Assembly: GCF_019924045.1 (NCBI RefSeq) | Contig: NZ_JAHXBN010000017.1 | Location: 248,001 to 312,000 of the forward strand | Length of the DNA: 64,000 nucleotides | Reading direction: 5' to 3' | Origin: Dyadobacter fermentans | Lineage (GTDB): Bacteria; Bacteroidota; Bacteroidia; Cytophagales; Spirosomataceae | Shown here: piece by piece, positions 18,762 to 37,005 of the stretch | Position numbering within the stretch: the first letter of the stretch is position 1 | How the letters are laid out: each line of letters begins with the position of its first letter | Translations under genes and position numbers: made by a program | The notes under the pieces: generated by a model | Databases searched by the model: none | Seen by the model: the letters and a program-made list of their open reading frames with translations, nothing else | What the model was told of the DNA's origin: nothing

Positions 18762-18863
18762 TGCCCCGTTGGTTGCGGGACTTTGATGGGTTCGTTTTGC
18801 TTATTATTTCCGGGCGTGGTCAAAATTGCTATTTTTGCTTTTGTCTATCTGCAATCCGTCAAT

Positions 18864-19595
18864 ATGAAATTTAGTATCGATCACAAGAGTCCTGTTCCTT
18901 TGCATATCCAGGCAGAGAACCTATTACGCAACATGATCAACTCTCCGGAGCACCTGGATGGGAAGTTCTTGCCGAATGAGGTGGAGCTGGCAAAACGGTT
19001 GGCCATTTCCCGGTCGACCTTGCGCCAGGCGCTCAACAAGCTGGTATATGAAGGGCTGCTTATCCGGAAAAAGGGAGTCGGTACGAAAGTGACGGAGCCG
19101 GTAATTAGTTCAAAATCAAAAAACTGGCTGAGTTTTACGCAGGAGATGAATGCGCGCGGAATTATCGTCAAGAATTTCGAGCTGCATGTAACCTGGGTGA
19201 CGCCCGACGAGAAAATCGCCAATTTTTTTGACATCGGTACCGACAAAAAGGTCCTGAAATTGGAGCGGCTCCGGGGTAAAGCCGAAGGACCGTTTGTGTA
19301 TTTTATCTCCTATTTCCACCCAAGAGTAGGGCTTACAGGCGAGGAGGATTTCAAACGCCCATTGTACGACATTCTCGAAAAAGACCATATGGTGATCGCT
19401 ACGCTTTCCAAGGAAGAGGTGAGCGCGATCGCCGCCGATAAGTTCACCGCCGCCAAGCTGGAAGTTGAACCCGGAAGTCCCATTCTTTTTAGAAAACGTT
19501 TCGTGTTCGACCAGGGCGAACGGCCTATCGAATATAATATTGGCTATTACCGCGCCGACAGTTTCGTGTATACAGTTGAAAGCGTAAGGGAATAG
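18864..19595 (+). CDS. GntR/HutC-family transcriptional regulator with UTRA effector domain
   Basis: A 243-residue protein starting at the ATG at 18864; the open frame upstream has no plausible protein character. Residues ~10-75 are the winged helix of GntR regulators (LPNEVELAKRLAISRSTLRQ, then LLIRKKGVGT). Residues ~90-240 are a UTRA domain, which in HutC-type proteins binds a sugar phosphate or similar effector. It lies 102 bp after the mannosidase and ends at a strong terminator. A -7-like TATTTTTG at 18830-18837 may give it its own promoter. Palindromes of the form TGT-N4-ACA, typical of GntR sites, lie upstream of the propeller gene, susC and the ROK gene, so it most likely controls this whole locus (inference). 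Confidence 0.9.
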   Translation: MKFSIDHKSPVPLHIQAENLLRNMINSPEHLDGKFLPNEVELAKRLAISRSTLRQALNKLVYEGLLIRKKGVGTKVTEPVISSKSKNWLSFTQEMNARGIIVKNFELHVTWVTPDEKIANFFDIGTDKKVLKLERLRGKAEGPFVYFISYFHPRVGLTGEEDFKRPLYDILEKDHMVIATLSKEEVSAIAADKFTAAKLEVEPGSPILFRKRFVFDQGERPIEYNIGYYRADSFVYTVESVRE

Positions 19596-19667: not shown

Positions 19668-20175
19668 GTTTATCCATATCATTTCGGCTGGGCAACGGGC
19701 TATCATAAAAGGTCAAACGAGTATTAACCAGTCACAGTAATTGTACATACATTTATCGCCCTTTTGCGTATAGCTCAATGGGTTTCTTGTTTTTGTAGAA
19801 GCGTGTATACTTATAAAATTCATACAAAATCAATGAATTATTATTGTTGATATTATTTGTATGTTCGAATATATGTTTATATGTTTGTACATATTAAAGT
19901 GCGATTACCGATAATATCATAACCGAATAACGTGAGCCTCGCTCCGAAGGCTACTGCATTGCTTTTGTTTCGGAAAAGGGCAAAGCAAAAGGCCGATAGG
20001 ACTGCCTGGTGGAGCAATTGCGGCGTAATGGCCGTGTGCAATCTGTGCAGAATGCAGCGACGTTTACCTATTACCGTTATACATATCATCAGCAAACCCG
20101 GAAGAATTGACGATCATAACCCAGCAGGCTTCCCGGCCGGCAGGGAGGGACTTTATTAATTAAATCTTGCCTTTT
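19668..20175. other. Long regulatory and leader region upstream of susC
   Basis: About 500 bp without a convincing gene. The left part (to ~19910) is AT-rich and holds the operator/promoter described separately. The right part (~19920-20170) is of ordinary base composition and would be an unusually long 5' leader if transcription starts near 19895. A 75-codon frame at 19932-20159 exists, but its residue make-up (Lys/Arg/Cys rich, no domain) does not convince me. A small GC-rich inverted repeat occurs around 20130-20150. No other structure was recognised. Confidence 0.5.
19856..19894 (+). promoter_or_regulatory. susC promoter overlapped by GntR-type operator (site B)
   Basis: TTTG (19856-19859), a 20-bp spacer and TATGTTTG (19880-19887) match the Bacteroidota -33/-7 consensus (TTTG-N19/20-TAnnTTTG). 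The -7 box lies inside the perfect palindrome ATATGT-TTGT-ACATAT (19879-19894), and a second degenerate copy (GTATGT-N4-ATATAT, 19859-19874) fills the spacer. Binding there would block the promoter, as expected for a repressor. Confidence 0.65.
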
Positions 20176-23100
20176 ATGAAACCAAAACTACTGACTGAAA
20201 ATGGGCACGGTGCGTCGTGTACCTTGTGGGGGATTGCGTTGATGGGGTTTCTCGCTCCTATGACGTGGGCGAATGCCGGTCCGCTCAGTCGCGCCCCGGG
20301 CGGGCGTCTGCCAGGCGTACCAACGTCCGGCATTGCCACACATGTAGCACACCCAACCCGGGCCGAACGAGCCGTTTCCGGAAAGGTTACGGATGAAAAC
20401 AATGCCGGAATTCCGGGCGTCAACATCCTGGAAAAGGGAACCAATAATGGTGTGGTATCCGATCAGGATGGGAATTACTCCATCCGGGTGAAAGACGAAA
20501 ACAGCGTGCTGGTTTTTTCCTACATCGGCTACACGAGCAAGGAAGTCAAGGTCGGCTCGCAGTCGGCGATCGCAGTGAAGCTGGATGTCTCGCCCCAGGA
20601 ACTGAACGACGTGGTGGTGGTTGGCTACGGAACGCAGAAACGGTCGGAACTGACCAATGCCGTTGTGCAGACAACCGGTGCGGAGATCAAGAAATCCAAT
20701 GCGGTGTCACTGTCCAACTCGCTCGCGGGCCGCATGGCCGGGGTGTATGTGACGCAACGGAGCGCTGCGCCGGGTTTCGACGATTCACAGATCCTCGTGC
20801 GGGGCGCCGGTACGTATCGCAATACTTCGGCGCTGATCGTAATCGACGGGGTGGCTAATGCCGATCCCGACGGCTTGAACCGCCTCGATCCCAATGATAT
20901 CGAATCTATTTCCGTCTTGAAAGACGCTTCTGCGGCTATTTACGGCGCGCAATCGGCGGGAGGGGTTATTCTTGTTACTACCAAAAGAGGTACAACCGGA
21001 AAGCCTGCATTCGACTTTTCTACCACGCAATCATGGCAATCGCCGACGATGAAAGTGAAGTCGGCCGATGCATTCCAGTATATGAAGGTGCTGAACGACA
21101 GAAGAGCGCTGGAAGGAACGCCGCCGGACTTTCCCGATGCATTGGTAGAGGCATTCAGAACAGGCCAGCGCCGGCCGGAAAACTGGTGGAATGCCCTTAT
21201 TGGCCCGCCGGTGCGGCAAACACGCTACTCGCTCACCATGCGGGGAGGTACCGACCGAGTGAGGTATTTCCTGTCGTTGGGTACGGCTTCGCAAGGCGGT
21301 ATCCTGCGTGGTGATACCAAGTCGAAGCTGAGACAATACAACGTAAGGAGTAACATCGACGTAACGGTAACCAAAGATTTTGAGGTAGGTCTCGATCTTT
21401 CAGTTCGTGAAAAATATACCCAGACACCGCAGGGTGGCGCCGGTGGGGAAGTGGGTGCGCTTGCAAGCACAAGCCCGTTGCAGGAAGCCTATATCGGTGG
21501 GGATTACCGCTATCCCGGTGAAGGATGGTCGCATTTGAACCCGGCCGCGCGCCTGCAAAGCCCCGGCTACCGCAGATACAAGGCCGACGTGGCCAGCGGA
21601 ACGCTGCGGGCCAAGTACAGCATTCCGTTCGTGAAAGGATTGGCGCTGGACGGTTACCTGTCGCTGGTTAAAACGGTGGATTACAATAAGCAGTTTAACT
21701 ACGTATGGCCCTATTATGAGCGTGCTCCGGATGGATCGATTGTGAAAAAGCAATCGAGAACGGTGGAGGATATTGGTCTGCGGGAGGATTTTAAACAAAG
21801 CCTGCGTACCACCGGAAACGTGAAGCTCTCATATGCCACTACGTTTGCACGAGACCATAAAATAAATGCATTTGTGGCCTATGAGCAGATGAGTTACAAC
21901 GACAACCTGTTCTGGGCGCAGCGCCTCGGCTACGATTCGCCGCTCATCGACCAGCTTTTTGCCGGAAGTACCAACCGGGCGAACTGGAACAATGACGGAA
22001 CAGCTACCGAATCGGGCCGCCAGAACTTTTTCGGACGCGTGAGCTACGACTTCAAGGAAAAATACCTTTTTGGTTTCAGTGCGAGGTATGACGGTTCGCC
22101 GATTTTCCCGAAAGAAACCCGGTTTGGATTTTTCCCGCAAGTATCTGCCGGCTGGGTGATCAGTAATGAGGCCTTCATTCCGAAGAATATCATCAGTAAT
22201 CTGAAACTGAGAGCATCCTGGGGGCGACTGGGTAACGACCGGGTAAATCCGTTCCAGTACATCGCTGCCTATGGCTATGACGCCGGTTGGGTAGTGAATG
22301 GGGTGGATGCCCGCGGGATTGCCGTGAAGTCGACACCGAACCCGAATATCACGTGGGAAGTGAGCGAAAAGACCGATTTGGGTCTGGAAGCGGCATTTTT
22401 GAATAACCGCCTGACGTTCGAGGCCGATATTTTCAAAAACAAAACTTCCAATATTCTCGGCAGAAGGCAGGCTTCGATTCCCAGCTACACCGGTTTGATC
22501 CTGCCGGATGAGAACATTGGTAAGATGAACAGCCAGGGTATCGAATTGCAGGCGGGCTACCGGCACAACTTCTCGAATCTCACGCTGCGTATCAACGGAA
22601 ATATCTCATATAACAAAAATGAGATTGTCTATTTCGATGAAACCCCTCAGGCCGAGCCTTATCAAAAGCTGGAAGGGCAGCCGTTCGGCTCGCGCCTGGT
22701 TTACAAGGCCATCGGCATCTACCGGACGCAGCAGGATCTGGACAACAGCGTGAAATATCCGGGCGCGACTTTGGGCGGGCTGATTTTTGCCGACCTGAAC
22801 AACGACGGTAAAATCGACAGCAACGACCGTTACATGTTCAATACCACTAATAATACCGATGCTACCACCGGGGTTACGACCATTTTCCCAAGTACACAAT
22901 ATGGTGTGAGCGTAGGATTGAACTACAAAGACTTCGATCTCACGATGTTGTTGCAAGGCCAAAGTGGCGCCAAGTTCCGTTTGAGCACAGGATTCAACTC
23001 CGGTGCGGGAGGTAATGGTCTGGAATACGTAGCGTTGAACAGCTATTCCAAGGAGAATGTAAATGCGGAGTTGCCGATGATCGCTCCGACAGGTCTTGCC

Positions 23101-23361
23101 AATTCGGACAGCGACTTCTATTACCATAAGGCGACCTGGATGCGCATGAAAAACATGCAGCTGGGTTATACGCTTCCCAAAAGCCTGCTTTCGAAAGCAA
23201 GGATTACCGCTCTGCGGATCTACGTTTCAGGGGATAATGCATTCATGCTCTTCAATTCGCTTAAAAAGTATGGCAATGGTGACCCCGAATTCCTAAGCGG
23301 AAACGGTGGTGCGTATCCTAATATGAAGACCCTGAGCTTCGGCCTCAATCTTACTTTCTAA
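20176..23361 (+). CDS. SusC-family TonB-linked outer-membrane transporter
   Basis: A 1061-residue protein, started at the ATG at 20176 in preference to a TTG three codons earlier. The N-terminus carries a hydrophobic export signal (~15-38). A carboxypeptidase-regulatory-like domain follows (~70-150, VSGKVTDENNAGIPGVNI), then the SusC plug with VVVVGYGTQKRSELTNAV and SISVLKDASAAIYG, and a large beta-barrel ending in LTF. No STN domain is present, so signalling through an anti-sigma factor is not expected; control by the GntR protein through the palindrome at the promoter fits better. It forms a lidded import complex with the SusD product encoded 12 bp downstream, taking up oligosaccharides. 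By context the cargo is probably a mannose-containing glycan (inference). Confidence 0.95.
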   Translation: MKPKLLTENGHGASCTLWGIALMGFLAPMTWANAGPLSRAPGGRLPGVPTSGIATHVAHPTRAERAVSGKVTDENNAGIPGVNILEKGTNNGVVSDQDGNYSIRVKDENSVLVFSYIGYTSKEVKVGSQSAIAVKLDVSPQELNDVVVVGYGTQKRSELTNAVVQTTGAEIKKSNAVSLSNSLAGRMAGVYVTQRSAAPGFDDSQILVRGAGTYRNTSALIVIDGVANADPDGLNRLDPNDIESISVLKDASAAIYGAQSAGGVILVTTKRGTTGKPAFDFSTTQSWQSPTMKVKSADAFQYMKVLNDRRALEGTPPDFPDALVEAFRTGQRRPENWWNALIGPPVRQTRYSLTMRGGTDRVRYFLSLGTASQGGILRGDTKSKLRQYNVRSNIDVTVTKDFEVGLDLSVREKYTQTPQGGAGGEVGALASTSPLQEAYIGGDYRYPGEGWSHLNPAARLQSPGYRRYKADVASGTLRAKYSIPFVKGLALDGYLSLVKTVDYNKQFNYVWPYYERAPDGSIVKKQSRTVEDIGLREDFKQSLRTTGNVKLSYATTFARDHKINAFVAYEQMSYNDNLFWAQRLGYDSPLIDQLFAGSTNRANWNNDGTATESGRQNFFGRVSYDFKEKYLFGFSARYDGSPIFPKETRFGFFPQVSAGWVISNEAFIPKNIISNLKLRASWGRLGNDRVNPFQYIAAYGYDAGWVVNGVDARGIAVKSTPNPNITWEVSEKTDLGLEAAFLNNRLTFEADIFKNKTSNILGRRQASIPSYTGLILPDENIGKMNSQGIELQAGYRHNFSNLTLRINGNISYNKNEIVYFDETPQAEPYQKLEGQPFGSRLVYKAIGIYRTQQDLDNSVKYPGATLGGLIFADLNNDGKIDSNDRYMFNTTNNTDATTGVTTIFPSTQYGVSVGLNYKDFDLTMLLQGQSGAKFRLSTGFNSGAGGNGLEYVALNSYSKENVNAELPMIAPTGLANSDSDFYYHKATWMRMKNMQLGYTLPKSLLSKARITALRIYVSGDNAFMLFNSLKKYGNGDPEFLSGNGGAYPNMKTLSFGLNLTF

Positions 23362-23373
23362 TTCAGATAACCT

Positions 23374-25230
23374 ATGAAATATTTAGTTATAAAAAATCAG
23401 GTAATGAAGCGGGCATTAACGATGTCGGTCGTCGGCATCATTGCCGCGGCTACTTCCTGTAACGTGCTCGACAAGAAGCCGCTGGACGCGATATCGGATG
23501 AGGCGGTATTTAATGATGCGGTTTTTCTTCAGAACTATGTGTACAATATCTATAACGGGATCAAGCCGCCCTGGGCGCCTGGTACCGGCGGCTATGATGC
23601 GCTGACGGACATTGCAGTGAACCAACCCGAAACCCATGAGCGCTCGGCAGGTATCCGCAACTACATTGAAGGAAATATGACCGCGGACAATGTTTCGGAT
23701 CTGGCCGCGATGCAAGATGGCACGCCGCTTTGGAATTATGAATACGGCTTTATCAGAAAGGCAAACGTATTTTTTGAGAATATCGAGAAATCGAGTATTC
23801 CCGCCGATAAACTGGATCCCATGAAGGGCGAAGTACATTTCCTGCGTGCGTGGATGTATTTCGAATTGATGCGAACATTTGGTGGCGTACCCATTATTAC
23901 AAACAGTTTTCAGCTGAACTCGGAGAGTTTTGACGTACCCCGGAATACGTTCGATGAATGCGCGAAGTTTGTATTGGAAGAGTCGGATAAGGCTATCGGA
24001 TTTTTGAATGGAGTGCCGGTCAATACCGGAAAGATCAGCAAAGCGGCAGCGATGGCGCTCAAGGCGAGGGTGCTGCTTTTTCTGGCAAGTCCGCTCAACA
24101 ATCCTTCCAACGACATGGCCAAATGGAAAGCCGCCGAAACGGCTACCAAGGCTGTTCTCGACCTGGGCTTTACGCTGCACCCGGAATATGCTGCGCTGTT
24201 TAAGAAGCCTTTGAAAACAGATGAAACCATCTTCGGGAAGTCGTTCACACCTGCTACCCGGATACCCGGCTGGGGTTACAATTACGACTACTGGCCCAGC
24301 GGTTTCGATGCGCAGCAGCGGATCGTTCCGACGCAGAACTTCGTAAATATGTTCCAGATGACCAACGGCGAATATCCCTACCTGGCCGACGGCGTGACGG
24401 TGAATGCGGCTTCGGGTTACGACCCACAGAAGCCGGAGAAAAACCGGGACCCAAGATTTTATGACGCGGTGATTTATCCCGGTGCGGGACCGCTTAATAT
24501 CGTAGACGGTTCGAAAAGTACCGAGCGCCTGTACGAATATTGGGAAGATGCCAATCCAAACCCAGACAATGCGCCTCCTTATATTAACCCTAACAAAGTA
24601 GACCCTAAAAACGGCCAGAACTTGTTTGACTTCGGCCGCGATTCGAAAACCTACTGGGTAAAAGGGCTCACGCCTTTCCACTGGCGGGTACAAACGGGTT
24701 ACACTTTCAAAAAGACCGACGACTTTGTCGGCCCGCGCGCGAGCTTTGATTATGACTATAACCAGGTGGTGGTGTTTATGAGGTTGACTGAGTTTTTCCT
24801 GAACTACGCCGAAATCGAAATGGCATTGGGCAACGAGGCAGTTGCAAGGGAATATATCAATAAGGTGAGAAAGCGGGCGTCGGTGCATATGCCCGATGTG
24901 AAAAGTACGGGTGCAGATCTGGTGCGGGTGTACCGGAACGAAAGGGCTATCGAGTTGCATTTGGAGGATTCCCGTTTCTTCGACCTTATGCGTTGGAAGG
25001 CGGCCCCCGGAAATGTGGATATAGCGGTGAGAGGGCTTACAAAAGTTACCATGGACTGGACAGGTGCTAAGCCGGGGGACGCTCTGGGAAAACTATCCTA
25101 TACCTACGGCGTGATTCCCGAAGCCGAGGTACGGAAGCCCTGGAAGGGCGACCATTATTATCTTTTCCCAATCCCGAATACGGAGATCCGGAAAAGTAAT
25201 GGCGCGCTTAAACAGAACCCGGGCTATTGA
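23374..25230 (+). CDS. SusD/RagB-family glycan-binding lipoprotein
   Basis: A 618-residue outer-membrane lipoprotein. A lipobox-like AATSC places the lipidated Cys at residue 29; an internal ATG at 23404 gives a more standard signal (Cys at 19) and may be the true start. The N-terminal TPR-like SusD region (~30-250) and the C-terminal half, with the typical LTEFFLNYAEIEMALG and NERAIELHLEDSRFFDLMRW blocks, place it in the SusD family. It acts as the surface lid that captures oligosaccharide for the SusC pore encoded just upstream. The pair is closed by the terminator at 25283-25314. Ligand cannot be read from sequence. Confidence 0.95.
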   Translation: MKYLVIKNQVMKRALTMSVVGIIAAATSCNVLDKKPLDAISDEAVFNDAVFLQNYVYNIYNGIKPPWAPGTGGYDALTDIAVNQPETHERSAGIRNYIEGNMTADNVSDLAAMQDGTPLWNYEYGFIRKANVFFENIEKSSIPADKLDPMKGEVHFLRAWMYFELMRTFGGVPIITNSFQLNSESFDVPRNTFDECAKFVLEESDKAIGFLNGVPVNTGKISKAAAMALKARVLLFLASPLNNPSNDMAKWKAAETATKAVLDLGFTLHPEYAALFKKPLKTDETIFGKSFTPATRIPGWGYNYDYWPSGFDAQQRIVPTQNFVNMFQMTNGEYPYLADGVTVNAASGYDPQKPEKNRDPRFYDAVIYPGAGPLNIVDGSKSTERLYEYWEDANPNPDNAPPYINPNKVDPKNGQNLFDFGRDSKTYWVKGLTPFHWRVQTGYTFKKTDDFVGPRASFDYDYNQVVVFMRLTEFFLNYAEIEMALGNEAVAREYINKVRKRASVHMPDVKSTGADLVRVYRNERAIELHLEDSRFFDLMRWKAAPGNVDIAVRGLTKVTMDWTGAKPGDALGKLSYTYGVIPEAEVRKPWKGDHYYLFPIPNTEIRKSNGALKQNPGY

Positions 25231-25282: not shown

Positions 25283-25314
25283 CCAATGGCGGGGTATACC
25301 CGCCATTGGCTTTT
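25283..25314 (+). terminator. Intrinsic terminator after susD
   Basis: CCAATGGCGGG and CCCGCCATTGG form a perfect 11-bp stem with loop GTATA, followed by CTTTTA. It ends the susCD transcript about 50 bp past the stop codon; with weaker T-tracts it may allow some read-through. Confidence 0.8.
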
Positions 25315-25411: not shown

Positions 25412-25429
25412 GATATGTATATACATATC
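25412..25429. promoter_or_regulatory. Candidate GntR operator (site C), perfect 18-bp palindrome
   Basis: GATATGTATATACATATC is a perfect palindrome and contains ATATGT-ATAT-ACATAT, identical in both half-sites to the susC promoter site. It is 213 bp upstream of the ROK gene. Confidence 0.6.
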
Positions 25430-25602: not shown

Positions 25603-25626
25603 ATATGTTTGTATATTTGAACATAT
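25603..25626 (+). promoter_or_regulatory. Candidate promoter/operator (site D) of the ROK-porter operon
   Basis: TATGTTTG (25604-25611) matches the TAnnTTTG -7 box. It overlaps ATATGT-TTGT-ATATTT, 14 of 16 bases like the susC site, with a further ACATAT at 25621-25626. The start codon is 16 bp further on. No clear -33 TTTG is seen, so the promoter call is tentative. Confidence 0.5.
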
Positions 25627-25641
25627 ATTACAAAGTCCCTT

Positions 25642-26925
25642 ATGAAAGCGCCAAATGTAAGTCTGGGGTTGGATGTCGGAGGAAGTCATGTTACGGCCAG
25701 TGTCGTGGATATGTCTTTCACCGGAGAGCGGTCGCTTTCGATGGTGCGAAAGGAAATAGATAGCTTCGGCGCTGCCTCGGAGATTGTGGCTGCGATCGCC
25801 GATTGTATCACGGAGGCGCTCGCGGGCAGGGAGCCGGTTGCCGGAATCGGGATCGCATTCCCAGGGCCTTTCAATTATGCCAAAGGGGTTTGTACAGTCC
25901 TTCACGTAGGCGGGAAATTCGAGCGAATGTTCGGGCTTCACCTCGGGCAGGCGCTCAGAGACGCTGCCGGTATGTCCGAAACCGCAATCCGGTTTTTCAA
26001 TGATGCGCATTGCTTTGCCGTCGGTGCCTATATGCAAAACTCGCTGCAAAGTAAACGGACGGTTTTTCTCACACTCGGATCCGGCTTTGGATCGTCGTTC
26101 ATGGAGAATGGCGAACTGTTAACACATCATATCACACTGCCCGCGTCGGGTGCATTCTACAATGAGCCTTTTGGGGAATCCATTGCTGACGATTATTTCT
26201 CTACGCGCTGGTTTCACCAGGCCTATCAGCAGGCCACCGGGCAGAATATCCGAAATGTTCGTGAGCTGGCTGAAATGGATTCGGAAGTCTCGAAAAGCAT
26301 ATTCCATGAATTTGGTGTTAACCTGGGCGGGTTTCTGCTTCCATGGCTGAAAAACTTCGGGTGTGATGAGCTGGTGATTGGCGGGAATATCGCAAAAGCG
26401 GGCCATTTGTTTCTCAATGCATTAGAAAATGAATTGAAATCGCTTGATGGTAAAGTGCATGTGGTTTTTTGTGATGATACGGAAGCGTGTATCCTGACCG
26501 GCGCTGCCTGCCTGGGCAATCGGGAAGGGGAAGCCTCCGACGATGCTGCCGGGGCTCCGGTTCCTGCCTGTGACACCGATCTTTTGGTCGAACGGTTGCG
26601 TCATGAAAAAACGGCCGCGATCGATGGTTTGGAAGGGCATCCATGGGAAGTCGTCCGGCAGAAACTGCACGCCGCCCTGACGGCGGCGGGGCGGAAGGTA
26701 CTTTGGTACGACATAGATGCCTGTCTTAAAAACCCGGCCGCCGATGAAAGACCAACCGGAAGCTTTGGAAACGTATTTTACGCATTAGATGATCAGAAAA
26801 TGAGGGTGCTGCACCCTGATACTTCTGCTGACTTGTGTATTGTTTACGGCACCGGCGCTGCTTTGTGTGGTTGGGAGGGCGAGCTGGTGAACCTCGGTTC
26901 TGCCCTTGAAACGAAACCCGTTTGA
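25642..26925 (+). CDS. ROK-family sugar kinase with extra C-terminal domain
   Basis: A 427-residue protein. Residues 1-~300 are an actin-fold ROK domain: phosphate loop LGLDVGGSHV, the catalytic-type Asp121 in FFNDAHCFAVG, and LTLGSGFGSSF. The Cys-rich zinc motif of many ROK kinases (CxCGxxGC) is absent. Residues ~310-427 are an added domain with ADLCIVYGTGAALCGW, which resembles part of the N-terminal extension of the isomerase at 14323-16074 (IVIVYGEGASLF). The usual ROK product is a sugar 6-phosphate, which would supply the isomerase in the same locus. It is the first gene of a rightward operon, with the porter 46 bp downstream. A regulatory rather than catalytic role is possible because of the missing zinc site. 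Confidence 0.8.
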   Translation: MKAPNVSLGLDVGGSHVTASVVDMSFTGERSLSMVRKEIDSFGAASEIVAAIADCITEALAGREPVAGIGIAFPGPFNYAKGVCTVLHVGGKFERMFGLHLGQALRDAAGMSETAIRFFNDAHCFAVGAYMQNSLQSKRTVFLTLGSGFGSSFMENGELLTHHITLPASGAFYNEPFGESIADDYFSTRWFHQAYQQATGQNIRNVRELAEMDSEVSKSIFHEFGVNLGGFLLPWLKNFGCDELVIGGNIAKAGHLFLNALENELKSLDGKVHVVFCDDTEACILTGAACLGNREGEASDDAAGAPVPACDTDLLVERLRHEKTAAIDGLEGHPWEVVRQKLHAALTAAGRKVLWYDIDACLKNPAADERPTGSFGNVFYALDDQKMRVLHPDTSADLCIVYGTGAALCGWEGELVNLGSALETKPV

Positions 26926-26971: not shown

Positions 26972-28381
26972 TTGCAAACACAACACGTAAAACACTTTAC
27001 ATTTCTCATTACGCTCATCGCGGCGTTGGGAGGCTTTTTGTTCGGGTTCGATATGGCCGTTGTGAGCGGGATCATCGAGCCGGTCAGAACGCAATATGGC
27101 TTGTCGGCTGCGGAAGAGGGACTGTTTGTTTCGTTTGCTTTGCTGGGCTGCATTATCGGGGTTGCGTTCTCGGGTTACCTGGCCGATAAAATAGGCCGGA
27201 AAAAAGTCCTGTTTGTAGCGGCCTTGCTTTTTTGGGTCAGTGCAATAGGTTTTTCATTTTCAAGTACTTACACTATTCTCATTATATTTCGCATCATGGC
27301 TGGCGCGGGGGTGGGAGTGGCTTCCAATGTGTCGCCGCTGTACATTTCGGAAATAGCGCCTGCGCCGAAACGCGGCGGGCTGGTTACGTTCTACCAACTG
27401 GCTATCACCATAGGTGTGCTGGCGGCGTACATCAGCAACTTATTCCTGCACAGGTATTCGCTCGCCCATGCGGGCACGGGAAGCGGCGTTTTGCATTGGC
27501 TGTTTGTGGAAGAGGTATGGCGCGGGATGTTTTTTGTAAGCGTAATCCCGGCGGCAGTGTTTTGTGTATTGCTCCTGACGGTGCCGGAAAGCCCGCGCTG
27601 GTTGGCCAAACACAACAGAAACGAAGAGGCACTCGGGATACTGGTCAAAATAAATGGGGAGGATGAGGCCCGTACGGAATTCGGGGCAATAAAGGAAGCC
27701 TTCACACAAAGAGAGGGAGGCGTAAAGGAGTTAATGCAATATCCCTTACGAGGCTTGCTGGTAATGACGATGGTCCTCACCGCCCTTTCGCAATTCAGCG
27801 GAATCAACGGCGTGGTATTCTACGGCCCGACGATTCTCCGGTCCGCCGGCATCGTGATCGGCGACGTGCTGTTGTACCAGGTAATGCTTGGCCTGGCCAG
27901 CATGGTGTTCACGCTGATAGCCATCTGGAAGGTCGATACGCTGGGACGGAGGTCGTTGTACCTGATAGGTTCAGCCGGGGCGGCGGTATCGCTCGCATTA
28001 ACCGGCCTGTGTTTCGCCTACGGCATTAATGGCTGGGGGATGCTGGTGTGCATCATGCTATTCCTGCTTTTTTTCGCCTTCTCGCTCGGGCCGTTGAAGT
28101 TTGTCATTGCTACGGAAGTATTTCCAAATCATATCAGGGGAACCGCATTGTCTATCTGTATTATGACGATGTGGGTGTCGGACTGGATCGTAAACCTGCT
28201 CTTCCCGCTCATGCGCGACGGGCTGGGAGTGGCTAATACATTTTTCGTTTTTTCCTTCTTCTGCGTGTGCTCGTATGTGTACGCGAAGCGGAACCTGTTT
28301 GAAACGAAAGGAAAGCGGCTGGAAGAAATAGAACAGTTCCTGAGTTCGGAGACTGTGAAAGGCGAAGTAAAGATTGGTTGA
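26972..28381 (+). CDS. MFS sugar porter
   Basis: A 469-residue inner-membrane transporter with 12 predicted helices. Family signatures are DKIGRKK between helices 2 and 3, PESPRWL before the central loop, QFSGINGVVFYGP in the second half, and GRRSLYL. These define the sugar-porter group (XylE/GLUT-like), which carries hexoses or pentoses with protons. There is no ATG near the expected start; a TTG at 26972 (TTG-CAA-ACA) is the only reasonable initiation codon before the first helix. It sits between the ROK kinase and the cytochrome lipoprotein gene with short gaps, so it probably brings the released monosaccharide into the cytoplasm for phosphorylation. Confidence 0.92.
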   Translation: MQTQHVKHFTFLITLIAALGGFLFGFDMAVVSGIIEPVRTQYGLSAAEEGLFVSFALLGCIIGVAFSGYLADKIGRKKVLFVAALLFWVSAIGFSFSSTYTILIIFRIMAGAGVGVASNVSPLYISEIAPAPKRGGLVTFYQLAITIGVLAAYISNLFLHRYSLAHAGTGSGVLHWLFVEEVWRGMFFVSVIPAAVFCVLLLTVPESPRWLAKHNRNEEALGILVKINGEDEARTEFGAIKEAFTQREGGVKELMQYPLRGLLVMTMVLTALSQFSGINGVVFYGPTILRSAGIVIGDVLLYQVMLGLASMVFTLIAIWKVDTLGRRSLYLIGSAGAAVSLALTGLCFAYGINGWGMLVCIMLFLLFFAFSLGPLKFVIATEVFPNHIRGTALSICIMTMWVSDWIVNLLFPLMRDGLGVANTFFVFSFFCVCSYVYAKRNLFETKGKRLEEIEQFLSSETVKGEVKIG

Positions 28382-28393
28382 TTGTGTAAAAAA

Positions 28394-30721
28394 ATGCAAA
28401 TGAAAAAGAAGTTCTTGTATCTGGGGGTACTATCCGGCGCCGTTGCTTTTCTGGCGGTTTCTTGTTTCAAAAAGAACGGCGTGTTACAGTCTCAGTCGGG
28501 TAGTGAAGCTGTGAGTTATAATTTCGATATCCGGCCGATTTTGTCCGATAAATGTTTCGCATGTCATGGTCCCGATTCGAAAAAGCGGGAGGCTGGTCTA
28601 AGGCTCGACTTGGCCGAAAGCGCCTATGCCAAGCTGAAAGACGGAAAAGGTGTGGCGATCTTCCCGGGCAAGCCGGAGCAGTCGGAGGTGTACCGGAGGA
28701 TAACTTCGGCGGACCCGTCTTACCAAATGCCGACACCCGAATCGCACCTGGGTTTGCTGAATGAAAGTGAAATAGGGCTGGTGAAGAAATGGATCGAGGA
28801 AGGTGCCAAATACGAGCGGCACTGGGCATTCACCACGCCGGTATTGCCGGCAGTGCCCGAGGTTTCGAAAGAAGACTGGCCCAAAAACGAAATAGACAAT
28901 TTTGTGCTGCGTAAAATGGAAGGCGCCGGACTGACACCGAACGACGAAGCCGCTAAAAGCTATTTGTTGAAAAGGGTGGCGCTGGACCTTACGGGCCTGC
29001 CACCGACCGTGGAAATGCAAAAGCAGTTCGAAGCCGACAAAAGCGACAAGGCGTACGAAAAAGTAGTGGACCAACTGTTAGCGCAGAAAACCTATGGCGA
29101 GAAAATGGCCGTTCACTGGTTGGATGTGGCGCGATATGCCGACTCGTACGGTTACCAGGACGATGAAGTGCGTACCCAATGGCCGTGGCGCGACTGGCTG
29201 ATCAATGCGTTCAACAAGAATATGAAGTACGACCAGTTCCTGATGTGGCAGATCGCGGGTGATATGCTGCCCAATGCCAACAAGGAGCAGATACTGGCCA
29301 CGGCATTTTTCAGAAACCATAAATACACCGAAGAGGGCGGCGTAATACCGGAAGAATACCGGATCGAGTACAATATCGATAAAACGAAAACTTTTAGTAC
29401 CGGTGTGCTGGGGCTCACCGTCGAATGCGCGCAATGCCATGACCACAAGTATGACCCTATTTCGCAGGAGGATTACTACCGGATGTTCGCATTCTTCAAT
29501 AACTCCAAAGAGCTTGGATTTGAGGGGGATATTTCGCAAACGAAACCTGCCAAGAACCCGATCATGACCATTTCGGACGAGGAGGCGAAGACATTGCTGT
29601 CGTTCATCAACCGGCCGGATACGAGCCGTCTGATGGTATCGGTTCTGGGCGACCTGGATACGCTGCGCCCGACGCACATTCTCAATCGGGGATCGTACGA
29701 TGCGCCGGGTAGGGTGGTTACCGCCTCGGCATTGCCTGCGGTAATGCGTTTTGATACCCTCAAACTACCGCAAAACCGGTTGGGACTAGCCAAATGGACG
29801 ACCAGCAAGAGCAATCCGCTCACGGCCCGGGTTTTCATTAATCAGATATGGCAGGAGTTTTTCGGAAGGGGCATCGTGAAAAGTACCGGGGATTTTGGCA
29901 TGCAGGGCGACTTGCCTACCAATCCCGCATTGCTCGACTGGCTTGCGGTCGACTTCATGAACCACGGTTGGGACATTAAAAGGCTCGTGAAACAGATCGT
30001 CACTTCGGCGACCTACCGGCAATCTGCCAAGGTTACCGACGAAAAACTGAAAGCCGACCCCGAAAACATCTACCTCTCGCGCGGCCCCCGCTACCGTCTG
30101 CCTGCGGAGCTCGTGCGCGACATGGTGCTCTCGACCAGCGGTTTGCTGAATCCCAAAATAGGAGGCCCCAGCGTAAAACCCTACCAGCCGAAAGGCATGT
30201 GGGAGGCGGCTACTTCGGGACGCGGCACCCTGCGCACCTACCAGCAGGACAAAGGTGATGCATTGTACCGCAGAGGGATGTACACGTTCATCAAGCTCAC
30301 CGTGCCGCCGCCGTCGATGATCATTTTCGATGCCAGCAACCGCGACCACTGCGAGGTGAAACGTTCCAAAACCAATACACCTTTGCAAGCGCTGGTGATG
30401 CTCAACGACCCGACCGTGCTCGAAGCCTCGCGCGTGTTCGCCGAGCGCCTGGTCGCGAAGTCGACCGACATCGAGAGTAATATCCGTTCGTCGTTCCAGG
30501 CGATCGTCTGCCGCCAGCCGACCGATAAGGAAGTAGAGCTGCTCAAAAAATATTACAATGAAGAAGCTACCATGTTCTCGAAACAAAAAGACAATGCCGC
30601 GAAAGTCTTGAATGTAGGTGAATTCCCCCACGAGGCCAAAGCCGACAAGGTACGTGCAGCAGCATTGATGCGCGTGATCAACACCCTGTATAACATGGAG
30701 GAGACGATTACGAAGAGTTGA
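28394..30721 (+). CDS. Envelope c-type cytochrome lipoprotein, PSCyt1-DUF1549-DUF1553
   Basis: A 775-residue protein starting at ATG 28394, with a second ATG six bases on giving a tidier signal (MKKKFLYLGV...). The signal ends in a lipobox LAVSC. Residues ~45-130 are a planctomycete-type cytochrome c domain with heme motif CFACH (Cys54, Cys57, His58). DUF1549 follows (~155-360, DNFVLRKMEGAGL, LDLTGLPP) and contains a second heme-type motif CAQCH near residue 345. DUF1553 (~450-740) holds VFINQIWQEFFGRGIVKSTG. This trio of domains is common in Planctomycetes and Bacteroidota, always beside DUF1501 genes, with no established reaction. Here it is inside a sugar operon, so a redox step on sugar or an electron relay is plausible but unproven. 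Confidence 0.85.
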   Translation: MQMKKKFLYLGVLSGAVAFLAVSCFKKNGVLQSQSGSEAVSYNFDIRPILSDKCFACHGPDSKKREAGLRLDLAESAYAKLKDGKGVAIFPGKPEQSEVYRRITSADPSYQMPTPESHLGLLNESEIGLVKKWIEEGAKYERHWAFTTPVLPAVPEVSKEDWPKNEIDNFVLRKMEGAGLTPNDEAAKSYLLKRVALDLTGLPPTVEMQKQFEADKSDKAYEKVVDQLLAQKTYGEKMAVHWLDVARYADSYGYQDDEVRTQWPWRDWLINAFNKNMKYDQFLMWQIAGDMLPNANKEQILATAFFRNHKYTEEGGVIPEEYRIEYNIDKTKTFSTGVLGLTVECAQCHDHKYDPISQEDYYRMFAFFNNSKELGFEGDISQTKPAKNPIMTISDEEAKTLLSFINRPDTSRLMVSVLGDLDTLRPTHILNRGSYDAPGRVVTASALPAVMRFDTLKLPQNRLGLAKWTTSKSNPLTARVFINQIWQEFFGRGIVKSTGDFGMQGDLPTNPALLDWLAVDFMNHGWDIKRLVKQIVTSATYRQSAKVTDEKLKADPENIYLSRGPRYRLPAELVRDMVLSTSGLLNPKIGGPSVKPYQPKGMWEAATSGRGTLRTYQQDKGDALYRRGMYTFIKLTVPPPSMIIFDASNRDHCEVKRSKTNTPLQALVMLNDPTVLEASRVFAERLVAKSTDIESNIRSSFQAIVCRQPTDKEVELLKKYYNEEATMFSKQKDNAAKVLNVGEFPHEAKADKVRAAALMRVINTLYNMEETITKS

Positions 30722-30726
30722 AAAAT

Positions 30727-30895
30727 GGCTTTAGGCTATAAGCTATAAGCTATAAGCCTTAGGCTATAAGCTTATCTAGGCATACCACTTGCAGCCTAAA
30801 GCCTATTGCTTAAAGCCTACAGCCTATTGCCTAAGTCTACAATGAACAAAAAATCAAAACAAGAAGCTTACGGCCTAAGGCTTATAGCTTAAAGC
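30727..30895. repeat. Heptad repeat blocks in both orientations between the DUF1553 and DUF1501 genes
   Basis: Three blocks of 7-bp units of the form GCTATAA/GCCTAAA/GCTTATA: 30727-30773 (GGCTATAA, GCTATAA, GCTATAA, GCCTTAG, GCTATAA), 30791-30835 (GCCTAAA, GCCTATT, GCTTAAA, GCCTACA, GCCTATT, GCCTAAG) and 30864-30895 (GCCTAAG, GCTTATA, GCTTAAA). The last block is largely the reverse complement of the first (GCTTATAGC against GCTATAAGC). The transcript could therefore fold into a long imperfect hairpin between the two genes. Nothing in it codes for protein. Confidence 0.85.
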
Positions 30896-30904
30896 AATAA
30901 AAAT

Positions 30905-32365
30905 ATGGAAAAGCCAATATTCGATTACGGAGTCAATACCACGCGGAGGCATTTTTTGTCCAAACTAAGCCTCGGCCTCGGCAGCGCGGCCCTGGGGTCG
31001 CTGCTCATACCGGACCTTTTCAAAGGCGGCGGCGGGGAGCCCGATGTGAACGAGCTGATGGCCGGCCTGCCGCATTTCGCTCCGAAAGCCAAGCGGGTAA
31101 TCTATCTGTTCCAAAATGGTGCCCCCTCGCAGCTCGACCTGTTCGACTACAAGCCGATGCTCAACAAAATGCACGGGCAAGACCTGCCTGAGTCAATCCG
31201 GGGCGGGCAACGCCTGACGGGTATGACCGCCAACCAGGCCAAGTTTCCGCTGGCGGGCTCGATTTTCAATTTCAAACAGCACGGAAAGAGCGGTGCCTGG
31301 ATGAGCGAACTGCTGCCGCACATGGCCGGCATTGCGGACGATCTTTGTATTATCAAAACCCTTAATACCGAAGCCATTAACCACGACCCCGCGCTGACTT
31401 TCTTCCAGACGGGCGCGCAGGTAGGGAACAGGCCAAGCTTCGGTGCATGGCTGAGCTACGGATTGGGCAGTGAAAACCAGAACCTACCTGGTTTCTGCGT
31501 ACTGCTTTCGCGCGGGAAAGGTAATGGGCAGGGTGTTTATTCCAAACTCTGGACCAACGGCTTCCTGGATTCGGTGCACCAGGGCGTGCAGTTCAGCAGC
31601 GGCGAAAACCCCGTGTTGTATCTCAATGACCCCGATGGGATGGACCGCACCCAGCGCCGCAAAATGCTCGATAATCTGGCCGAACTGAACCAGGGCACAT
31701 TCAACGACTTCGGCGATCCGGAAATCACGGCCAAAGTACAGCAATATGAAATGGCGTTCCGTATGCAGACGGCCGTTCCGGAAATTACCGATATGAGCAA
31801 GGAACCGGAATCGATCGTGAAAATGTATGGTCCGGAATGCCTTGTGCCCGGTACTTATGCTGCGAACTGCCTTCTGGCGCGGAAACTTTCCGAGCAGGGT
31901 GTGCGGTTCGTGCAGCTTTATCACCAGGGATGGGACAGCCATGGCGGACTGCCGACGGAAATCAAAGGGCAATGTATGGATGTGGATCAGGCGTCGGCCG
32001 CATTGGTTACCGATCTCAAACAACGCGGCTTGCTGGACGAGACGCTCGTGATCTGGGGCGGGGAGTTCGGGCGTACCAACTACTGTCAGGGAACGCTCAC
32101 CAAAGACAACTACGGCCGTGATCACCACCCGAGGGCGTTCACCGTGTGGATGGCCGGCGGTGGTATCAAACCGGGCATGGTGTACGGCGAGACCGACGAG
32201 TTCGGATACAATATTGTGAAGGACCCTGTCCACGTCCACGATTTTCATGCGACCATCCTCAACCAACTGGGACTGGATCATGAAAAATTGGTGTACAAGC
32301 ATCAGGGCCGCCGCTATCGTCTTACGGACGTTGCCGGTAAGTTGGTGAAAGGAATTATTGCGTAA
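30905..32365 (+). CDS. Tat-exported DUF1501 protein (sulfatase/phosphatase-like fold)
   Basis: A 486-residue protein. A twin-arginine signal is present at the N-terminus (TTRRHFLSK followed by a hydrophobic stretch, residues ~12-36). The body matches DUF1501 with RVIYLFQNGAPSQLDLFDYKP, a His/Asp-bearing HQGWDSHGG, WGGEFGRTNY and YGRDHHPRAFTVW, placing it in the alkaline phosphatase/sulfatase superfamily. It lacks the Cys/Ser-x-Pro-x-Arg formylglycine signature of true sulfatases. Tat export implies folding with a cofactor or metal in the cytoplasm. It is followed by an overlapping membrane cytochrome gene and preceded by a DUF1549/1553 cytochrome, its usual neighbours; the reaction is unknown. 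Confidence 0.88.
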   Translation: MEKPIFDYGVNTTRRHFLSKLSLGLGSAALGSLLIPDLFKGGGGEPDVNELMAGLPHFAPKAKRVIYLFQNGAPSQLDLFDYKPMLNKMHGQDLPESIRGGQRLTGMTANQAKFPLAGSIFNFKQHGKSGAWMSELLPHMAGIADDLCIIKTLNTEAINHDPALTFFQTGAQVGNRPSFGAWLSYGLGSENQNLPGFCVLLSRGKGNGQGVYSKLWTNGFLDSVHQGVQFSSGENPVLYLNDPDGMDRTQRRKMLDNLAELNQGTFNDFGDPEITAKVQQYEMAFRMQTAVPEITDMSKEPESIVKMYGPECLVPGTYAANCLLARKLSEQGVRFVQLYHQGWDSHGGLPTEIKGQCMDVDQASAALVTDLKQRGLLDETLVIWGGEFGRTNYCQGTLTKDNYGRDHHPRAFTVWMAGGGIKPGMVYGETDEFGYNIVKDPVHVHDFHATILNQLGLDHEKLVYKHQGRRYRLTDVAGKLVKGIIA

Positions 32366-34547
32366 AGTACAAACCTCTAATACAGTGAGTAGAATTTTGT
32401 CGGATTGGAAAGGGTACGTCTACAATATTGCCTTTTTCCTGAATGGATTGCTCGTATTTCTGTTGTTCTTCGAAAGCCGGTTCGCCGTTCCGCAATGGAT
32501 GCAGGCTTTGGGGAGAATGCACCCGCTCGTGCTGCACTTTCCGTTGGTTGTATTAATCCTTTACAGCCTGTGGGTAATGATCGTGCGGAAGCCGGATTCT
32601 CATACCTGGAATGAAGGCCTGGCCGACAGCCTGCTGGTGATTGGTACATTCACTGCTGCGGTGGCTGCATTTTCCGGCTTTGTGCTGTCGCATGAGGAAG
32701 GTTACGAATCGGACACATTGCTTTGGCATAAATGGCTGGGTATCGCCATTTCCATTGCGGCGGTGGTTTGGTACGGGGCAAGAAAATCCCTGTTGCCGTG
32801 GACGACCGGTGCAAAAGTGGTTGCCGGGGCATTCCTGGTGTTGCTTTTTGTGGGCGGGCACCTGGGGGGAAATCTTACCCATGGCGAGGATTTCCTGATT
32901 TCGCCGCTGGGGCCGTCGGCCGAACCGGCGCAACACGTGGCGTTTGAGGAGGCCAAAGTATACGAGCATCTGGTGAAACCGGTGATCGAGCAGAAATGCC
33001 TTTCCTGCCATAATGAAGAAAAATCGAAAGGAGGGCTGCAAATGCAGACAGAAGCCCTGCTTAAAAAAGGTGGAAAAGGCGGCATGCTCTGGGACACCAC
33101 CAAGGCGGACCTGGGCTTGCTCATCAGCCGCCTGCATTTGCCGCTGGATGATAAAAAACATATGCCGCCGCGCGGTAAAGTGCAGCTCACGGAAGAAGAA
33201 GTGGTATTGCTTGCGGCCTGGGTCAAAAGCGGTTCGCGCTTCGATCAGCTTGTGAGTTCGCTGTCGCCGCAGAGCCCCGTGTATTCCTACGCGCAGAATG
33301 TGCTGGGCGGGGATCGTACCGAGGAGCAATATGCATTTAGTGCCGCATCGGCCGACGAGGTGAAGAAGCTGAATACCAACTATCGCCTCATCAAGCCGTT
33401 ATCGGCAGGCTCTCCGGCATTGTTCGTGAACTTTTACAACAGGGCTAATTTCAAGAGTCAGGACATCGAGGGCTTGCTGCCTTTGAAAGACCAGATTGTT
33501 TCCATGGATTTGAGTAAAATGCCTGTGAAAGACGAGGATCTCAAAACACTGGCTAAATTTCCCGAACTTCGCAGGCTCATACTAAACTTCACGGACATTA
33601 CGGGTAGCAACCTGACGGAACTGAAAAAGCTGGCCAATCTGCGGGAGCTTTCGTTGAGCGGTACCGGCATTACCATGGCGCACGTCAAATCGCTCGAAGG
33701 TTTCCCGGCGCTTCGTCGAGTTTATCTTTGGAGTACGGGTATTGGCCCGCAAGATCTGGAAACTTTGAAAAAAGGCCAGAAAATCGCATTTGAAACCGGT
33801 TTCCGAAGCGATACCCTGGTGATGGCGCTTAACCCGCCGGTAATCGTCAACGAAAAGCAGCTGATCAGCAAGGGGGAAACGGTTGCGATGAAGCACCAGA
33901 TCGCGGGTACGGTCATCCGTTATACGCTGGATGGCTCCGAGCCCGACAGCGCCAGTTCGCCTGTTTACGACAAGCCGATTGCTATCAATGGAAACTTAAA
34001 GCTCAAAGCAAGGGCATTCAGGAAAGGATGGTACGGCAGTACGCAAGTGAGCAAATTGTTTTTCAAAGAAGGCTTCCACGTCGATAGTGCGCAGCTGATC
34101 ACGCCGGTAGACCAGCGGTATCATGCAAAAGGTGCCGCGTCTATCTCGGACGGCAAGGTCGGCGACACCGAGCGGGTGAGTGGTACCTGGCTCGGGTATG
34201 TCGAGAACGATTTCCAGAGCTATCTGTTTTTCAAAAAGCCGGTGAAAGCCAGTGTGGTGACTGTGAGTACATTGCGGAGCTTCGGGAGCTTTATTTTTGA
34301 ACCAACTAGGATTGAAGTATGGGGCGGTGCCGACCCGAAAACCTTGAAATTATTAAAAGTGATCACCCCGGGAGTCCCGGCGAAAGACATTCCGGGTACG
34401 GAAAATATTGTGTATGAAGCCGGATTTGAGCCACAGCAACTGAGCTGCATCAAGCTCGTCGCGAAACCGCTTGCAAAAATACCTGCCTGGCATTCGGGTA
34501 AAGGCAATAAAGGTTGGCTGTTTGTCGACGAAGTAATCGTAAATTAA
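32358..34547 (+). CDS. Membrane-anchored c-type cytochrome with leucine-rich and chitobiase-like domains
   Basis: A 729-residue protein from a TTG at 32358 that overlaps the DUF1501 stop by 8 bp; a GTG at 32385 is an alternative start and neither has a good ribosome site. The N-terminal ~190 residues hold about five membrane helices with GRMHPLVLHFPLVVL, like DUF2231-type heme-binding membrane domains. A cytochrome c domain follows with CLSCH at residues 214-218 and MPPRG as a possible Met ligand region. Then come leucine-rich-repeat-like turns (~380-480), a chitobiase C-terminal-type domain (~510-570, IRYTLDGSEPDS), and a discoidin-like end. It likely links electron flow between the membrane and the two upstream proteins (inference). 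The operon ends at the terminator at 34602-34633. Confidence 0.8.
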   Translation: MRKVQTSNTVSRILSDWKGYVYNIAFFLNGLLVFLLFFESRFAVPQWMQALGRMHPLVLHFPLVVLILYSLWVMIVRKPDSHTWNEGLADSLLVIGTFTAAVAAFSGFVLSHEEGYESDTLLWHKWLGIAISIAAVVWYGARKSLLPWTTGAKVVAGAFLVLLFVGGHLGGNLTHGEDFLISPLGPSAEPAQHVAFEEAKVYEHLVKPVIEQKCLSCHNEEKSKGGLQMQTEALLKKGGKGGMLWDTTKADLGLLISRLHLPLDDKKHMPPRGKVQLTEEEVVLLAAWVKSGSRFDQLVSSLSPQSPVYSYAQNVLGGDRTEEQYAFSAASADEVKKLNTNYRLIKPLSAGSPALFVNFYNRANFKSQDIEGLLPLKDQIVSMDLSKMPVKDEDLKTLAKFPELRRLILNFTDITGSNLTELKKLANLRELSLSGTGITMAHVKSLEGFPALRRVYLWSTGIGPQDLETLKKGQKIAFETGFRSDTLVMALNPPVIVNEKQLISKGETVAMKHQIAGTVIRYTLDGSEPDSASSPVYDKPIAINGNLKLKARAFRKGWYGSTQVSKLFFKEGFHVDSAQLITPVDQRYHAKGAASISDGKVGDTERVSGTWLGYVENDFQSYLFFKKPVKASVVTVSTLRSFGSFIFEPTRIEVWGGADPKTLKLLKVITPGVPAKDIPGTENIVYEAGFEPQQLSCIKLVAKPLAKIPAWHSGKGNKGWLFVDEVIVN

Positions 34548-36958: not shown

Positions 36959-37005
36959 AGCTGGGTAATGATTAATAAACACATATTCTGATAGGTAGAA
37001 ACCTT

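Follow-up and report, generated by a model that had tools for sequence, protein, structure and literature searches.

The closest described relatives of the locus analysed here are gene pairs of Planctomycetes and Verrucomicrobia, in which a PSCyt2/PSD1 (DUF1549/DUF1553) gene stands with a DUF1501 gene. In the accessible part of PMC2754498, PSD1 and PSC2 are each counted 41 times in Rhodopirellula baltica, and according to the accessible text of PMC5615132, a role in carbohydrate metabolism was proposed from fused binding modules and neighbouring sulfatases. Our study concerns three consecutive genes, here called A, B and C, in a stretch of 64,000 nucleotides from Dyadobacter fermentans (assembly GCF_019924045.1, contig NZ_JAHXBN010000017.1, positions 248,001 to 312,000), referred to as the window and used for the numbering of all positions. 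Genes A and B possess the same domains as the pairs above, whereas the Bacteroidota unit adds a DUF2231-PSCyt1 gene (C) and, in some relatives, an NHL propeller. We tentatively propose, at a probability of about 0.42, that a widespread but uncharacterised envelope enzyme takes the form of A-B-C in Bacteroidota; in it, a metal-dependent B would act on a glycan or sugar with A and C as electron carriers.

Several other systems resemble parts of the trio. DUF1800-DUF1501 pairs, found in operons with bacterial chitin synthases according to the accessible text of PMC5122149, have a DUF1501 partner whose candidate active-site residues are largely those of B; DUF1800 and PSCyt2-PSD1 are distant profile neighbours, but CxxCH was found in none of 30 DUF1800 proteins. 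PSD4/PSCyt3 and HXXSHH (PF07586) genes are neighbours as A and B are, and HXXSHH is homologous to DUF1501, while the heme protein has another architecture and its PSD4 part matches A outside the cytochrome domain weakly (E 0.0099). The alkaline phosphatase superfamily (NPP/ENPP, PafA, sulfatases) has a fold like that predicted for B, which differs in several replaced metal ligands and an apparent histidine at the nucleophile position. Cellvibrio Cbp2D, a candidate electron donor for lytic polysaccharide monooxygenases (LPMOs), is like the trio a polysaccharide-linked c-type cytochrome; the accessible text of PMC8981238 describes heme domains and DUF1587, and, unlike the trio, its own carbohydrate-binding module and a YceI-like domain of quinone-binding type. 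A CBM2-DUF1592 Cellvibrio protein is listed in the accessible part of PMC6004670. Cbp2D is the nearest biochemical hint to the mechanism of the trio.

The first-pass annotation had called the module an undescribed system. The domains and their pairing are published (PMC5615132, PMC2754498, PMC5122149), and what stands of that claim is that the accessible text of these papers gives no function. The searchable papers, a set without subscription papers and most preprints, give the domains, their pairing and the carbohydrate guess; in their accessible text we found no DUF1501 fold, no trio with DUF2231 and no link among the three branches. Papers joining three of cytochrome, SusD, planctomycete cytochrome and Dyadobacter contained, in their accessible text, neither DUF1501 nor DUF1553, and a search for a cytochrome-linked glucoside 3-dehydrogenase returned no paper.

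Conserved features of the three proteins

Gene coordinates and Pfam matches confirmed the existence and placement of the three genes (Table 1). A single scan across named genomes yielded 80 loci, 53 of them from Bacteroidota. In 42 of these 53 (four from Dyadobacter), A is present and the sequence extends at least 5.2 kb beyond it; among them, A is followed by B in 40/42 and by C in 39/42. In the genome studied here, a DUF1501 gene adjoins the PSD1 gene in 8/8 cases. A would be a regular heme-bearing partner of B.

All domains of A score over their Pfam cut-offs (PSCyt1, 59 bits; PSCyt2, 285; PSD1, 338). Residues C53, C56, H57 and M111 (counted from codon 28397) are invariant in a 63-row alignment, where C347 of the second heme motif is also invariant and C344 and H348 are conserved in at least 90% of rows. 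With the motif of C, at least three CxxCH motifs are present, as first annotated. Outside the cytochrome domain, DUF1800 is the best of 73 profile targets for the A family (E 8.4e-4), at a low probability of 24% (42% in reverse). A is possibly kin to DUF1800 proteins.

Gene B matches DUF1501 (PF07394) at 523 bits (curated cut-off 27). Its N-terminus reads NTTRRHFLSKL, which we take to be a twin-arginine signal, and the arginine pair is invariant in a 28-row alignment and conserved in at least 90% of a 59-row alignment. This conservation speaks for the earlier call of export by the twin-arginine translocation (Tat) pathway, by which B would presumably cross the membrane already folded. The predicted fold of B is that of an alkaline-phosphatase-superfamily relative, and the DUF1501 profile matches six sulfatase-like sequences at E 1.5e-7; a known redox fold for B was rejected on this prediction. 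Among the residues of the two-metal site of the superfamily, D344, H346, H407 and E387 are conserved, while the first Asp (N71 in B) and the D-H/D-N pair are not; where sulfatases have the D-N pair, 59/59 rows have E-F. Histidine occupies the nucleophile register in 59/59 rows, with no Ser, Thr or formylglycine at the helix start, this register being set from sequence motifs and the predicted helix 160-169 rather than from coordinates. The motifs include what we take to be the NPP motif. Taken on the fold prediction, B is probably a metal-binding enzyme of alkaline-phosphatase fold with an altered candidate active site.

Gene C matches DUF2231 (PF09990) at 32.3 bits (cut-off 26.4), PSCyt1 at 32 and CHB_HEX_C_1/Fn3_assoc at about 50, together with a weak leucine-rich-repeat match. 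Five membrane histidines (H55, H60, H124, H168 and H175, counted from 32358) are invariant in 90/90 aligned C-type proteins, as are C214, C217, H218 and M269. The rows outside Dyadobacter were picked by exactly one CxxCH and a length of 440-820 amino acids, plus three fusions and one short form, so that in those rows the Cys and His of the heme motif carry no information, which does not affect the membrane His. Placed by eye from the order of hydrophobic segments, all five histidines appear to lie on one face, the outer, and are possible ligands of heme b or a metal. Several are also kept in stand-alone DUF2231 proteins, whose genes neighbour what we take to be a metal-efflux gene. Since DUF2231-PSCyt1-PSCyt2-PSD1 fusion polypeptides occur in two loci (L015, L064), the functions of A and C belong together.

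At first pass, B and C were seen to overlap, which they do only if C starts at TTG 32358. The closest C orthologues have 720 amino acids, which favours GTG 32385 as the start and would leave a 19-bp gap; a functional overlap, which needs the unlikely TTG start, was rejected. The repeat between A and B matches the genome on either strand, with some matches overlapping, and also occurs in copies between A and B at the paralogous locus L011 (G000:C154:314183-314312).

Table 1. Positions of the trio, its conserved motifs and the neighbouring features in the window
Feature	Positions	Strand	Remarks
GntR-UTRA regulator gene	18783..19595	+	
Operator-like site before susC	19871..19894		
susC and susD	20167..25230	+	
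Terminator-like hairpin after susD	25283..25309		CTTTTAT follows
Perfect 18-bp palindrome GATATGTATATACATATC	25412..25429		likely GntR operator
Second operator-like site before ROK	25603..25626		
ROK-family gene	25642..26925	+	first gene of unit holding porter-A-B-C
Sugar porter (MFS)	26972..28381	+	upstream of A in transcription unit of trio
Gene A	28394..30721	+	lipoprotein PSCyt1-PSCyt2-PSD1, 775 amino acids from ATG 28394, two CxxCH
First heme motif of A, CFACH (PSCyt1)	28553..28567	+	invariant in 63-row alignment; M111 likely axial ligand
Second CxxCH of A, CAQCHDHKYDP (PSCyt2)	29426..29440	+	conserved in alignment
Dispersed genomic repeat between A and B	30721..30904		66 genome matches
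Gene B	30905..32365	+	Tat-exported DUF1501, predicted alkaline-phosphatase-superfamily fold
Twin-arginine codons R14 R15 of B	30944..30949	+	
Codon of invariant H160 of B	31382..31384	+	superfamily nucleophile position by register
D344-S-H346 of B	31934..31942	+	candidate metal ligands; D 59/59, H 58/59
E387-F-G-R390 of B	32063..32074	+	replaces sulfatase D-N pair (alignment)
D406-H407-H408 of B	32120..32128	+	candidate metal ligands; D406 55/59, H407 59/59, H408 54/59
Gene C	32358..34547	+	DUF2231 membrane domain, PSCyt1, LRR, CHB_HEX_C/Fn3_assoc; probable start GTG 32385
Membrane part of C, five invariant His	32520..32882	+	90/90 rows
Heme motif of C, CLSCH	32997..33011	+	

Related gene pairs and the reaction of B

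The main doubt about an electron-carrying role of A and C comes from the heme-free branch, which largely shares the residues of B and makes a non-redox reaction nearly as likely. DUF1800 is present in 37/41 genomes of the family, and a DUF1501 gene lies downstream in 26/29 DUF1800 loci with room for it (by our own profile; Pfam confirms 10/10 tested). All 26 of these DUF1501 partners carry [ST]EFGR and GTDHG, while GxDxH occurs in 22 and SHxRS...T[AG] in 18. In its specific form, the alternative takes B for an ordinary metal-dependent hydrolase or transferase with glycan phosphate or sulfate esters as substrates, the hemes of A and C serving sensing or assembly and no substrate being oxidised. 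The predicted fold, the match to the six sulfatase-like sequences and the residues kept in the DUF1800 branch agree with it, as does a PDB sequence search whose ten hits include weak matches to sulfatases and LtaS (E 0.066 or worse). However, the histidine and E-F invariant at the nucleophile register and D-N position, as well as a partner with heme motifs in two of three branches, argue against such an enzyme, which we consider somewhat unlikely.

The homology of HXXSHH to DUF1501 spans 366 columns (E 3.1e-10), and in 23/30 HXXSHH proteins a loose pattern finds a [TS][GA] pair with a His nine positions ahead of it. In eight genomes, 75 of the 89 entered PSD4 matches have HXXSHH within 4 kb, and 74/81 in reverse. 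When the cytochrome domain is left out, PSCyt2-PSD1, PSD4 and DUF1800 match one another above 67 decoy families: the other two each score best against DUF1800, which in turn has them as its two best targets. The mutual matches range from E 2.6e-4 to 0.01 (decoys at least 0.017), with low probabilities of 4-42%. From these profiles we propose that the three may be homologous; if so, heme was added to a heme-free core. Three results speak against this use of profiles: gene C is the second target for PSD4 proteins (E 0.0026, probably through the heme motif), the NHL family ranks fourth for DUF1501 (E 0.0017), and HXXSHH alone barely beats a decoy family against the sulfatase-like set (E 0.0013, probability 18%; decoy E 0.002). 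The direct match of A to PSD4 is weak, as given above.

A broader form of our proposal would make DUF1501/HXXSHH an alkaline-phosphatase-superfamily branch whose nucleophile was replaced by an invariant His and which supplies catalysis in an ancient enzyme of two proteins. Its second protein would be of DUF1800 type, with hemes gained in two of three branches and a membrane cytochrome in Bacteroidota, so that an enzyme of hydrolase fold became a respiratory glycan-oxidising complex. We regard this wider scheme as unlikely.

Genomic context and the sugar operon

A ROK gene and a sugar porter stand directly upstream of A, as first annotated, and 12 bases separate the porter stop from the start of A. 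The locus has features of a polysaccharide utilisation locus, namely a susC/susD pair and operator-like sites common with the trio unit. The motif ATATGTNNACATAT, allowing up to two mismatches, has ten partly overlapping matches in the window against 1.67 expected, a number reached by 0/100 shuffles; three lie before a DUF4185 gene, two before susC, four before the ROK gene and one before the second susC. The hairpin with CTTTTAT and the perfect palindrome suggest that ROK-porter-A-B-C is separate from susCD, and these are probably two units with like operators. The palindrome common to both units, proposed at first pass, is upheld by the sites before susC and ROK and their recurrence: same-clade loci L126-L134, L138, L139 and L141-L143 have them before ROK and/or susC. 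None is listed for L136, L137 and L140 of the sugar clade, and outside it none stands before any susC or ROK gene; the non-sugar loci L150 and L154 have one two-mismatch match each before A. The GntR-UTRA protein would bind these sites and regulate susCD and the trio unit together.

A C homologue is present in 48/48 Dyadobacter genomes searched. We compared 40 Dyadobacter regions with C matches of at least 55% identity (G045:C99 and G003:C3 left out; genomes G004 and G042 contribute four regions between them), and the order A-B-C is kept in all of them. The trio stands in the sugar operon in 15/40 (L128 being cut by a contig end), in remnants of it in 2/40 (L136, L137), and in other contexts in 7/40, several with another SusC. 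The remaining 16/40 share one recurrent non-sugar neighbourhood with a gene we take to be carboxylase-like, which L151 lacks while having the other neighbours. In L136, the GntR gene is all that is left of the operon and stands immediately before A, an arrangement that looks like loss of the sugar genes and retention of the trio. In a midpoint-rooted FastTree tree of the joined proteins (41 tips, including the window), the 18 sugar-operon and remnant tips form one clade with support 1.0, and the 16 recurrent-neighbourhood tips are not monophyletic. Among 40 Bacteroidota loci from named genomes that span at least 15 kb, SusC and SusD occur together in four (two from Dyadobacter), SusC alone in three and SusD alone in one. 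The single clade and the sparse SusC/SusD elsewhere indicate that the sugar link of the trio arose once. A conserved link of this trio to sugar genes was therefore rejected; the first-pass annotation had named the absence of such a link as its refutation, and this result does not extend to the wider module family. Linkage to sulfatases is weak (1/40 Bacteroidota loci, 4/27 other loci).

Such a distribution would suit a general envelope redox unit unrelated to glycans, with an accidental place in the sugar operon. The recurrent non-sugar neighbourhood and the few SusC/SusD pairs favour this explanation, and so do the genes preceding the trio in L032, L033, L040 and L095, presumably fabH-efp-accB-accC-like. 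The operator-like sites retained in the sugar clade and the wider PSD1 family point the other way, and we hold the explanation to be quite unlikely. Of the eight PSD1 loci in the genome, five have a SusD gene at most 5 kb away, whereas 13.6% of the genome lies that close to one (P 0.0018). When two single-contig Dyadobacter genomes are added, the three genomes being of one genus and not independent, 10/22 PSD1 loci lie within 5 kb (12.5% expected, binomial 1.4e-4) and 14/22 within 10 kb (21.6% expected, 2.5e-5); genome G021 alone has no enrichment at 5 kb (2/8, P 0.23). Among paralogues, B is followed by GH32 in L009 and by GH95 in L012, SusCD lies directly upstream of the modules in L012, L014 and L015, and A bears a LamG insert in three of four tested. 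Both the proximity to SusD and these glycan genes agree with the carbohydrate role proposed in the accessible text of PMC5615132. Of the sugar association first suggested, the like operators and the PSD1-SusD proximity in three Dyadobacter genomes remain, and for the trio itself the link is a single event.

Some further genes were observed around these loci. Many relatives encode an exported NHL-repeat propeller protein between B and C, as in L036 (4921-5946) and in 12/42 Bacteroidota loci, with a Pfam NHL assignment for one of the 12; the protein is absent here. In several Dyadobacter, FG-GAP/UnbV_ASPIC and PAP2 proteins stand between susD and ROK or A, namely in L062 (4438-9374; Pfam), L130, L131, L133 and L134. 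A 583-amino-acid protein without Pfam match at E 0.001 (window 14323-16074) recurs in the sugar operon as a nine-protein cluster including the window. Beyond C, a 768-amino-acid protein without Pfam match over cut-off (34676-36982) precedes a second SusC/SusD-like pair with FecR and sigma genes on the minus strand. An MbnB/TglH/ChrH-family (PF05114) gene adjoins the paralogous module of L011 (6777-7910).

Proposed mechanism and significance

The first-pass annotation had proposed an envelope redox complex acting on a glycan; the conserved c-type heme motifs in A and C and the membrane protein C support it, but B has no known redox fold. In the mechanism we favour, B would be a metal-dependent catalyst whose nucleophile is replaced by an invariant His, and C, with its His cluster and c-type heme, would provide the membrane connection of A, with the quinone pool as the most likely contact. 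In the periplasm, the probable target of modification by the trio is a small glycan or sugar derivative, and A and C would exchange electrons with the membrane. A GntR-controlled sugar-uptake operon would have captured the trio once, in one Dyadobacter clade. That A and C instead supply electrons to a separate oxidative enzyme (an LPMO or flavin sugar dehydrogenase) for which B prepares the substrate is improbable: CjX183 of Cbp2D reduces LPMOs (accessible text of PMC8981238) and L010 and L048 have GMC oxidoreductases no more than 10 kb away, but a GMC-like cluster occurs in 3/88 loci only, and the operon lists, in which LPMO genes were not searched for, show no constant neighbour beyond B, C and the NHL protein.

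No function has been assigned to the PSCyt/PSD proteins despite their abundance in Rhodopirellula baltica. The predicted fold and candidate catalytic residues of B, largely common to the heme-free and heme-bearing branches, make point-mutation and metal-content experiments possible, and Dyadobacter, with a regulator gene nearby and a candidate operator, offers a tractable case.
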